Of a stretch of 22,884 nucleotides of DNA, positions 16,194 to 21,266 are shown piece after piece; position 1 is the first letter of the stretch; every line of letters begins with the position of its first letter. The position numbers were made by a program, and so were the translations under genes. The DNA lies in the IMG/VR virus record IMGVR_UViG_3300020463_000147, positions 1 through 22,884 of that record, one strand, 5' to 3'. This DNA comes from a virus. The notes under the pieces were generated by a model. The model searched no databases. It saw nothing but the letters and a program-made list of their open reading frames with translations, and was not told the origin of the DNA.

Positions 16194-17240
16194 CTATATT
16201 AAATTATCAAAAATCTGTTTTTGAAGTTCTAAAGCTATGTTTTTAATCATTAGTGGTGGAACAGACATTCCACAAATATATTTTGAATCCATACCTAAAA
16301 AATTATAGTCATCAGGAAAACTTTGAAGTCTAGATATTTGTTTTGAACTTAATTTAACAGGCATATCATAATGATATATAGAGCCACCAGATGTAATAGT
16401 GTTAACAGGTAAATTAGGATGAATTTTAAAGTTTGAAAAGTATGAACTTGAATTCCAAAGTTTCATTGCTGCATCAGAAAAGTTTTTACCTGGTTTTGTA
16501 TTTACCCATAATTGATACTGTTTAGTTGATTTTTTAAGTTGTTTATTGGAATTCGGAAGATTAAATATAGCTTCTTTAGTTGTGATAATTTGTTTTCTGA
16601 AAGACATTTTAAGTTTTTTTTTTTTCATTTTGTTAAAAATATCTTTTCTAATTCCTATAAAAAAAACACGTTGTCTAGCTTGTGGAACTTGCATATATTT
16701 AGAGTTTAAAAGAAAAACTTGTACATGATACCCAATATTTTTATATTTGTATATTATTTTTCGAGCATAGTTTTTAGCTTTAGACATTATTAAACCTTTT
16801 ACATTTTCAGCTACAATAACTTTTGGTTTAATCTTATTAGCAAAATCTAAGAAGTAAAAAAATAAATCATCAAGTTTTTGTTTTTTTTGACCTTCTCTGA
16901 ATTTTTTTTCTTTACCCCAAAAACTTTCTCTTTTAGTTGAAGCTGTACTAAATACTGAGCAGGGGGGTGAACCGTCTAAGATATCTATATTATATAACTC
17001 TTTATCAATTTCTTTTTTGATTAAATTTCTTATATCACTCTGATAAAATATTTTAGGATTATGATTTATTTTATAAACATTTGCCATTTTTGGGTCAATC
17101 TCATTTCCTCCTAAAGAAGTATACCCCGCCAATTTATATCCCATTGTTGAACCACCACCACAGCAAAAACAAGAGAATACTTTTAAATTATTCTTTTTAA
17201 CTAATAATATATCTGTAAGATTCCACCTAATCAAACTCAT
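16194..17240 (-). CDS. C5-cytosine DNA methyltransferase
   Basis: A 348-residue enzyme transferring a methyl group from S-adenosylmethionine to cytosine C5. Motif I is VFSCFCCGGGSTMGYKLAG (21-39), motif IV is GSPPCS with catalytic Cys94, motif VI is ENV (145-147), and motif VIII is QARQRVFFIG (187-196). The target recognition region spans about 200-300. Motif X is GMSVPP (324-329), where most family members have GNSVPP or GNAVPP. The start is taken as the ATG at 17240; a GTG at 17246 is possible. Both overlap the ParB-like gene and lack a ribosome binding site. With no nuclease gene beside it, it probably protects phage DNA or marks it for packaging rather than being half of a restriction system. 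Confidence 0.9.
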   Translation of the reverse strand: MSLIRWNLTDILLVKKNNLKVFSCFCCGGGSTMGYKLAGYTSLGGNEIDPKMANVYKINHNPKIFYQSDIRNLIKKEIDKELYNIDILDGSPPCSVFSTASTKRESFWGKEKKFREGQKKQKLDDLFFYFLDFANKIKPKVIVAENVKGLIMSKAKNYARKIIYKYKNIGYHVQVFLLNSKYMQVPQARQRVFFIGIRKDIFNKMKKKKLKMSFRKQIITTKEAIFNLPNSNKQLKKSTKQYQLWVNTKPGKNFSDAAMKLWNSSSYFSNFKIHPNLPVNTITSGGSIYHYDMPVKLSSKQISRLQSFPDDYNFLGMDSKYICGMSVPPLMIKNIALELQKQIFDNLI

Positions 17241-17712
17241 AGCCACAACTAGGACATTTATTTTTAGCCTTTAAATAAGAATCAGTTATTTCTGTATTTT
17301 CAATATCATCATCAATTTTAGGTTCTTTGTTTAGTAAATTTTGAAGTTCATCGGAATCAAATCCAGTATTTAAAAGTTCATAATTATTTTTCGATATGTT
17401 ATCAAGTTCAATTTGTAATTTGTCTAAATCCCAATAATTATCTTGCGCAAGTTTATTATCGGCTATTCTGTAAGCCTTAGCTTTAATTTCAGATAAATTA
17501 GCTACTTGAACCGGTATTTTATTTAATCCTAACTTTTTTGCAGCTGCGTATCTTGTATGGCCTACTATTATTACATTCTCTTTATCAACTACTATTGGTT
17601 GTTGAAATCCAAATTCTTTAATACTAGAAGCAACTTTATCAACATTTAAGTTTTTTCGTGGATTATTAATATATGGAAAAATTGAGTTTATATCTACTTC
17701 TGTAATATCCAT
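17227..17712 (-). CDS. ParB/sulfiredoxin-fold protein linked to DNA modification
   Basis: A 161-residue protein. Residues 1-95 match the ParB N-terminal domain: DINSIFPYINNPRKN, IKEFGFQQPIVVDKENVIIVGHTRYAAAKKLGL (GHTRYAA at 51-57) and RIADNKLAQ. The end carries CPSCGYEF, a lone CxxC. This type is found in phages next to, or fused with, DNA methyltransferases; it lacks the DNA-binding HTH of true partition ParB. Its 3' end overlaps the methyltransferase gene in another frame by 14 nt. No ribosome binding site precedes the ATG, but a tiny frame ends at it (TAATG). Role inferred: specificity or regulation of the methylase, or CTPase/nuclease-like activity. Confidence 0.85.
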   Translation of the reverse strand: MDITEVDINSIFPYINNPRKNLNVDKVASSIKEFGFQQPIVVDKENVIIVGHTRYAAAKKLGLNKIPVQVANLSEIKAKAYRIADNKLAQDNYWDLDKLQIELDNISKNNYELLNTGFDSDELQNLLNKEPKIDDDIENTEITDSYLKAKNKCPSCGYEFD

Positions 17713-19719: not shown

Positions 19720-20325
19720 CTAACCAGCTAAAGTGTTTTTATTTGATACTTTTACTTTAACTATTTTATAGTTTATATAATATTCATCTCGCAACCATTT
19801 AACTGGGTTATGATAGAATTTTGTTACCTCCATTTTATAATTCTTTAAACAATTTAAAAGAAGTGTTTTGTCTTTTATTTTGACCCATTGTTTGTATGTT
19901 AATTTTTTATTCCATTTAAAATCCTCCTCTGGATATAGTTTCCAAAAAATCTCAAATTGTTCTGTATATTTATTTATATTTAATTGATTGTTTAAAGTGA
20001 TAGTATTGGGGGTTGATTTTGATACCCCTACCCCCTCTATTTTAGGGGTGGCTAATTTGATACCCCTACTAATTGTATATAAATTTGATGTTTGTTTATT
20101 ACCTTGAAATCTAAACTCTGATTTTACATACCCTTTTTCTACCAATTCATCTAAACTTCTTTTTATTGTATTTGAATCACAATTACATAATTCAGATAAT
20201 TTTTTTTTACTAGGATAGCTTTGCCATTGTTCATTGGCATAATTTGCTAATACTAATAAAACTAATTTTGAAGTAGGTCTTATATTCTTTGCATTTATAC
20301 AAAGTGCTAAAGCATCAAATGACAT
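19720..20325 (-). CDS. Replication initiator-like protein (lambda O-type, winged HTH)
   Basis: A 201-residue protein. Residues 1-85 form a winged helix (HTH_36-type): PTSKLVLLVLANYANEQWQSYPSKKKLSEL, then the recognition helix SNTIKRSLDELVEKGYVKSE. A linker at 86-110 contains two similar peptides, GIKLATP and GVSKSTP. The C-terminal part (125-180: FEIFWKLYPEEDFKWNKKLTYKQWVKIK) is the type found in phage replication proteins that load a helicase. The linker is encoded by iteron-like DNA repeats, the same layout as lambda O with its internal origin. It has a strong AAAGGAG ribosome binding site and precedes the primase-helicase gene by 7 nt. Confidence 0.8.
   Translation of the reverse strand: MSFDALALCINAKNIRPTSKLVLLVLANYANEQWQSYPSKKKLSELCNCDSNTIKRSLDELVEKGYVKSEFRFQGNKQTSNLYTISRGIKLATPKIEGVGVSKSTPNTITLNNQLNINKYTEQFEIFWKLYPEEDFKWNKKLTYKQWVKIKDKTLLLNCLKNYKMEVTKFYHNPVKWLRDEYYINYKIVKVKVSNKNTLAG
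20018..20069. repeat. Iteron-like repeats inside the initiator gene: candidate replication origin
   Basis: The 14-mer TTTGATACCCCTAC occurs at 20018-20031 and again at 20056-20069, 38 bp apart. Between them TAGGGGT (20043-20049) is the same 7-bp core ACCCCTA in inverted orientation, and CCCCT (20032-20036) can pair with AGGGG (20044-20048). These G/C blocks stand out in A+T-rich surroundings, and a very A+T-rich stretch follows at 20070-20100. Direct plus inverted cores inside an O-like gene next to A+T-rich DNA are the architecture of the lambda origin. Origin function is inferred. Confidence 0.6.
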
Positions 20326-20357
20326 TTTTTTCTCCTTTTAGTTTAAGCATTATAAAT

Positions 20358-20386: not shown

Positions 20387-20453
20387 TATCCTTTAAAAGA
20401 TAAAAAAAGAATATAATAAAATCAATAACTTATAAAAAAAGTTAAATAAAGGG

Positions 20454-20481
20454 TTTACAATAGTAATTATTTGTATAAAAT
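20454..20481 (+). promoter_or_regulatory. Plus-strand promoter of the 20637-21558 operon
   Basis: TTTACA (20454-20459), a 16-nt spacer and TAAAAT (20476-20481) form a sigma70-like promoter with a predicted start near 20488-20490. It is nearly identical to the promoter at 10773 (GGG-TTTACA-wt-AGTAA ... TGTATA, same spacing), and TAAGGAAAT follows both. The predicted start coincides with the 5' arm of the leader structure described next. Confidence 0.65.
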
Positions 20482-20487
20482 AAAATT

Positions 20488-20636
20488 AAGGAAATATTAG
20501 AAAAGTCATTGAGGGTCATTGGTTGGCACACAGGAAATTTCTAAAACAAGTTTAAAAAGTTGAAGAGTAATCTGCTCCCCCAACATTTAAAGATGAAGAA
20601 CCTCCTAATATTTCCCCAAACTTTTAGGAGAAAAAA
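20488..20636 (+). promoter_or_regulatory. Structured 5' leader with two exclusive pairings around the ribosome binding site
   Basis: This ~150-nt leader has no coding frame of note. TTAGGAG (20624-20630), which holds the ribosome binding site, is complementary to CTCCTAA (20602-20608), giving a 7-bp hairpin with a 15-nt loop that would hide it. CTAATATTTCC (20605-20615) is also a perfect 11-bp complement of GGAAATATTAG (20490-20500) at the predicted 5' end. GAGG (20511-20514) matches CCTC (20601-20604), extending that pairing. The two states cannot coexist. Inside are GTCATTG twice, 10 bp apart (20505 and 20515), and a GTTG/CAAC stem (20559-20562 with 20581-20584). This is the layout of a translational riboswitch or attenuator; I recognise no known class. 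It also accounts for the gene-free stretch 20326-20636 together with the two promoters. Confidence 0.55.
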
Positions 20637-20870
20637 ATGGTAAACATACGACCAACAACTGCAACTAAAAAAATGCTTGAAGAAAAGTTTAATACTTTAT
20701 TTCATGAGCATCATTCATATACTCAACAACATTTAGCAACCAAAGTTGATAATTCAATTAAATTAAATGCTCTAGAAAAAGAAATGAAATTAATTTGTAA
20801 GTTTTTAGATTTAGATTTTAATGATGAAATTTTATTTCGCACAGAACAAATTTGCTGGGAGAATAAATAA
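20637..20870 (+). CDS. Small hypothetical protein, first gene of the plus-strand operon
   Basis: A 77-residue protein (MVNIRPTTATKKMLEEKFNT; HHSYTQQHLATKVDN; ALEKEMKLICKFLDLDFND). It looks mainly helical. It has the optimal AGGAG site 6 nt before the ATG, and that site can be hidden by the leader hairpin. The stop overlaps the next start. No family recognised; as the first gene behind a strong promoter and regulated leader, an early role is plausible. Confidence 0.65.
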   Translation: MVNIRPTTATKKMLEEKFNTLFHEHHSYTQQHLATKVDNSIKLNALEKEMKLICKFLDLDFNDEILFRTEQICWENK

Positions 20871-21055
20871 TGATTGATATTTTAAATGATATACAAAACC
20901 TAGAAAAAGTAAAAAGTTTTATGCTTAAAGCAGTTGTATCTAATGATGAAGCAGATGCAAATCTTGGAGTAGCAATAGAAAAACTTAATTTAGTTATAAA
21001 AAATAAAGAAAATATAATTACTGATTTTAATAAAATGGAGAAGCAAAATGGATAA
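20870..21055 (+). CDS. Small hypothetical helical protein
   Basis: A 61-residue protein (MIDILNDIQNLEKVKSFMLK; EADANLGVAIEKLNLVIKNK) predicted as a helical hairpin. The ATG overlaps the upstream stop (TAATG), with GGGAG 8 nt before it. The 3' end overlaps the next gene by 8 nt. No family recognised; part of the plus-strand operon. Confidence 0.6.
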   Translation: MIDILNDIQNLEKVKSFMLKAVVSNDEADANLGVAIEKLNLVIKNKENIITDFNKMEKQNG

Positions 21056-21266
21056 AGTAAATTGGCAAATTATTATCGAACTTAAAGATAAGACTCTTTG
21101 GGTTACAGAAGGATTTGGTCTTGATGATGGTATTAATAATCTTATGTCTGAAACTCGTTTTAGTAAAGAAAGTTTTATTAAAGAAATTCATTCTATCATA
21201 GCCAAAAATTCAAAAAAAATGGAATATATAAAAGCTAACCTAAAGAAGCAAAATGAAAACAATTAG
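21048..21266 (+). CDS. Small hypothetical protein
   Basis: A 72-residue protein. The N-terminus (VNWQIIIELKDKTLWVTEGFG) has a strand-turn-strand pattern and the C-terminal half is a Lys-rich helix (SIIAKNSKKMEYIKANLKKQ). A GGAG site sits 7 nt before the ATG. It overlaps both neighbours, by 8 and 14 nt. No family recognised. Confidence 0.6.
   Translation: MDKVNWQIIIELKDKTLWVTEGFGLDDGINNLMSETRFSKESFIKEIHSIIAKNSKKMEYIKANLKKQNENN

Follow-up and report, generated by a model that had tools for sequence, protein, structure and literature searches.

Among the closest known systems is the maturation-gene leader of phage MS2, a kinetic leader that has been experimentally proven (van Meerten et al. 2001, as related in PMC6733600). 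In the leader analysed here, which precedes a 77-aa early gene, a transiently open nascent RNA would likewise permit translation before closure, according to our modelling. In contrast to MS2, an RNA phage with a proven mechanism, it belongs to a DNA phage, its folding is in silico only, it is not conserved and its final state is a mixture rather than a closed form. The cIII leader of phage lambda has been shown to be bound by host RNase III, which shifts its fold (PMC2777011). It shares with our leader the setting of a phage early gene and a translation-inhibiting structure that refolding could relieve, as predicted in our case; a known acting factor, RNase III, sets cIII apart from the leader described here. 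The aapA3 toxin mRNA forms metastable hairpins, with compensatory changes across strains (PMC6733600). There too, short hairpins over the ribosome site are set against a long-range pairing by the 5′ end, but this pairing closes the aapA3 message, whereas ours would open it and is present in no second strain. Finally, the marine phage Melnitz carries a glutamine riboswitch of a recognisable family (PMC9004378); our leader, also from a marine-type phage, is likewise a candidate for a structured regulatory RNA, but it matches no Rfam family.

The window, by which we mean the whole stretch of 22,884 bases that was analysed, is a linear virus record. It belongs to a tailed phage, as its genes for terminase, portal, major capsid and tail show, and the best terminase match among the named phages listed is Roseobacter phage CRP-6 (48%). 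The 77-aa gene lies on the plus strand at 20637–20870, divergent from a replication-initiation gene on the minus strand (19720–20325; PHROG 270 and others). A confident structure model of the 77-aa protein predicts three helices. Searching this fold among viral proteins returned nothing at E≤0.001 and therefore gave no functional hint, and a search for the gene in genome contigs and phage records found none. The ribosome sites of the divergent gene pair lie in 22-nt inverted copies that are 86% alike (20323–20344 and 20618–20639). Elsewhere in the record, near the primase-helicase, overlapping genes for a DNA methyltransferase (16194–17246) and a ParB-like protein (17227–17712) are found on the minus strand.

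If transcription starts near 20488, the leader of the 77-aa gene spans 149 nt (20488–20636, plus strand). The preliminary description had placed two perfect pairings within it, and a recheck of the letters found these and all of their coordinates to be correct; as a feature of the sequence, the leader and its pairings are real. The 5′ arm GGAAATATTAG (20490–20500) has its perfect reverse complement at 20605–20615, and this open-state helix is extended by GAGG (20511–20514), the complement of CCTC at 20601–20604. The strand CCTCCTAATATTTCC (20601–20615) is shared, as its partner can be either the 5′ arm or the ribosome site. In the hidden state CTCCTAA (20602–20608) pairs with the complementary ribosome site TTAGGAG (20624–20630), so that 20602–20608 is the stretch contested by both helices. 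A hairpin at 20547–20596 is common to both predicted states. On the minus strand, the leader also contains a terminator-like hairpin followed by T's (20562–20580), which points leftward to the replication gene.

A rightward early promoter, TTTACA-16-TAAAAT, was predicted at 20454–20481 (plus strand) by consensus scan and alignment to relatives. It matches the consensus at 10 of 12 positions and aligns with a TTGACT-16-TACAAT site in the relative L016. The −35-like boxes of L002, L019 and L020 align with it as well, yet in L002 and L019 the scan called no promoter at that place. The start had been said to coincide with the 5′ arm, and a start near 20488 is indeed plausible; promoter-type matches in the surrounding region are no commoner than in shuffled sequence. 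A 32-nt imperfect direct repeat (20411–20442 and 20475–20506, 75%) also aligns an AT-rich stretch upstream with the −10 region and the 5′ arm.

Folding both states, a check proposed in the preliminary description, gave two near-equal and mutually exclusive folds in silico. At 37 °C the hidden state is predicted at −29.1 kcal/mol and the open state at −28.8 kcal/mol, with populations of about 0.6 and 0.4 and a predicted barrier of about 13 kcal/mol between them. Nascent RNA was modelled by equilibrium calculations on prefixes rather than by kinetic simulation. In these, the open helix has a probability of 1.00 in any RNA ending at or before 20626, and the mixture of open and hidden states arises once the coding region joins the folded prefix. 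The prefix folding shows the behaviour expected of a kinetic leader, one state being adopted first in the nascent RNA, and the model also yields the exclusive folds of similar energy, one hiding the ribosome site, that define such leaders, in a balance that depends on the settings. Across the dangling-end and lonely-pair options by which robustness was judged, and across transcript ends, the open fraction ranged from 0.21 to 0.96. The open fold is predicted to need the first six nucleotides of the transcript: with a start at or beyond 20494 the open helix is lost and the hidden helix forms with a probability of about 1.00. Overall, the leader is no more stable than its shuffles (z −0.57).

How unusual such an arrangement is depends on what is counted. 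The window holds four perfect inverted repeats of at least 11 nt within 160 bp, against 2.4 ± 1.6 in dinucleotide shuffles; long pairing by itself is at chance level. In shuffled leaders a 7-bp helix over AGGAG occurs in 1.8% and an 11-bp helix in 0.75%, and the ribosome site is covered at 0.5 or more in 76%. Two helices with a common strand, the second of at least 10 bp, arose in 0.005% of shuffles (1 in 20,000), a joint criterion that was framed after the case had been seen. Among 113 AGGAG start sites in real AT-rich phage DNA, the ribosome site lies under a 7-bp helix in 8, and both helices occur in the leader alone (0 of the 112 others). We also scored folding as switch-like where the ribosome site is partly covered, the covering strand is paired in nascent RNA and two states coexist. 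Predicted folding was at least as switch-like in 44 of 4000 shuffles (1.1%) and in 2 of the 113 natural sites, the leader included, and similar scores are obtained for the next gene start in the window (20870), which has coding sequence upstream. Judged by function in this way, the leader stands out at about the 1% level, a figure uncorrected for the approximately 30 gene starts in the window.

Two relatives, L001 and L002, carry the 77-aa gene with identities of 92% and 91%. To the left of the leader, 20326–20450 matches L002 at 87% and 20326–20465 matches L009 at 96% in DNA, and to the right 20615–20700 matches L001 and L002 at 93–94%. Between these flanks, 20451–20614 has no credible match among the relatives searched and is specific to the record; this absence holds for the sequences searched, from which near-identical records may have been omitted. 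The neighbouring proteins of L001 are near-identical to those of the window (o61 98%, o101 97%, o70 100%). In the place of the leader L001 has a gene that ends 51 bp ahead of its 77-aa gene, and in L002 two genes (68 and 198 aa) separate the aligned promoter from the 77-aa gene. In the more distant relatives L016, L019, L020 and L031, inspection places the start of the first gene about 30–45 nt beyond the aligned promoter position, and a leader of such length is unusual in this phage group; the 77-aa gene is absent at the junction in L016, L019 and L020. More broadly, the early operon to the right of the replication gene appears as a cassette hotspot in which small genes are swapped behind the aligned promoter (20451–21252 in the window; L001:1–1180; L002:1278–2657; L016:2190–3000). 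At one such position, a 163-aa gene in L001 and L016 (PHROG 624 in L001) replaces the 72-aa gene of the window.

The ribosome site itself reads AAAGGAG in L001 and L002, where the CTCCTAA partner is missing; it is predicted to be open in L002 and partly paired with other bases in L001. With AA at 20624–20625, as in these relatives, the hiding helix would have 5 bp; TT in the window gives it 7 bp, a difference that could stem from selection or from chance. Two related phages match the 20 nt of 20621–20640 at 95% in another place, so the TTAGGAG variant is not unique to the leader. L001 (240–292) and L002 (2170–2226) share a 7-bp hairpin, GGGTCAG...CTGACCC, that immediately precedes the ribosome site of their 77-aa gene, although their upstream genes differ. 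No relative keeps either competing pairing, an outcome that the preliminary description had itself named as contradicting its proposal, and a conserved switch is not supported. The relatives lack the whole segment, so that individual pairs can be called neither retained nor lost in them.

The earlier reading had recognised no known riboswitch class, and Rfam, at gathering and relaxed thresholds alike, likewise gave no match on the leader strand. The open fold, cast as a covariance model from the one sequence, was used to search 655 kb of related loci, where the window was the sole hit; a scan of 15 whole records, which had no positive control, gave no hit. Exact-pattern matches in L005 and L006 cover only 17–18 nt, lie within or across unrelated genes and were judged to be chance; the remaining exact pattern scans for pieces of the leader were empty. 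In a distant-DNA search of phage records the hits, all of them weak (E about 0.09), were to viruses of Bacillus and Sulfolobus and were set aside. The leader was also considered as a decayed gene, and this was rejected for want of a convincing resemblance to the upstream genes of L001 or L002.

The leader may be a genuine two-state regulatory element of the MS2 or lambda cIII type, whose state is set by folding kinetics or by a bound protein or nuclease, a reading that we regard as possible but unlikely. In its kinetic form, new RNA would be open and translated at first, and its later relaxation into a partly closed form would limit synthesis of the 77-aa protein to a pulse. The predicted order of events suits this, as the open helix is complete before the ribosome site exists and then gives way to the near-even mixture across the predicted barrier. 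Further points in its favour are the rarity of the joint architecture, the AA-to-TT change that strengthens the hiding helix and the plausibility of the transcript start that it requires. Against these stand the lack of conservation in any relative, an open balance that shifts widely with folding options and transcript end, and the similar behaviour of about one shuffle in a hundred. A more specific proposal, which seems doubtful, is that this DNA phage has recently acquired an RNA timer peculiar to its strain, placed behind an existing promoter at a cassette hotspot; an early transcript that is open when nascent and closed later would then deliver a pulse of the first early protein. The least probable reading is an undescribed translational riboswitch, in which 20490–20615 would form a ligand domain closed by the long helix and the ligand would free the ribosome site. 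Its layout alone is suggestive: the closing helix surrounds internal hairpins, its 3′ strand is the strand that opposes the ribosome site, and the exclusive helices at that site are, in the folding model, those of a riboswitch-type expression platform; marine phages can also carry riboswitches (PMC9004378). However, a conserved, covarying ligand-binding domain was not found, as Rfam gave no match and the relatives have no homologous leader, the stability does not exceed that of shuffles and the downstream 77-aa gene offers no hint of a ligand. An RNA thermometer was rejected because mean predicted pairing of AGGAG is nearly flat, from about 0.73 at 4 °C through 0.70 at 37 °C to 0.66 at 45 °C.

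The inverted repeat might instead act as DNA, either as a pair of operators to which a phage regulator binds or as the ends of a small inserted element, which we consider improbable. The perfect 11-bp repeat does flank most of the record-specific segment, with its right arm where similarity to relatives resumes, but the window shows no enrichment of the motif (20 near matches against 15.6 expected), inspection revealed no flanking duplication and no other copy was found in the relatives. Translational coupling is slightly less probable still. A short frame (27 codons from TTG at 20560, or 16 from an internal ATG) reads across the hairpin and over the start codon of the 77-aa gene before it ends at 20643, and ribosomes translating this frame could open the hairpin. 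By inspection, though, neither start is preceded by a good ribosome site, the frame does not resemble the upstream genes of L001 or L002, and chance makes such short frames common. The most economical account, which we regard as more probable than not, is that the leader is a lineage-specific junction sequence of cassette exchange, with largely fortuitous pairings that impose modest constitutive damping at most. Since the whole stretch is absent in close relatives, a by-product of exchange is likelier than a proven switch. The unmatched 20451–20614 between flanks matching at 87–96% fits exchange, and so does the finding that about 1% of shuffles and one other natural site fold in a comparable two-state manner; the rare two-helix architecture, the almost equal energies, the longer hiding helix and the unusual length of the leader argue against it.

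In this cassette exchange, an accessory gene cassette would have been replaced behind the retained early promoter, before the 77-aa gene, and the non-coding leader of about 149 nt would have been left or brought in. The 5′ end of the nascent RNA would pair with the strand able to cover the ribosome site; once that site is made, the 7-bp hairpin would compete and cover it in about half of the molecules. Translation would probably be damped to a modest, constitutive degree, with no regulated switching, and we infer that no signal for switching is at work.

Of the two-state RNA switch first proposed, the exclusive, near-equal folds survive in silico, while its standing as a conserved or known regulatory RNA does not. 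The suggestion of a riboswitch-class or temperature-controlled leader has no positive evidence, as the missing Rfam match and structural homologue and the near-flat temperature response show; defining features of both classes were sought and not found, and we accordingly file the leader under neither. As a selected switch it is a weak candidate and, should it prove functional, it would join the alternative-structure leaders, a kind already known. AT-rich phage leaders readily show switch-like pairings, which calls for caution in reading them. If the switch were nevertheless true, the phage would gain RNA-level timing of an early gene through local replacement of its leader.
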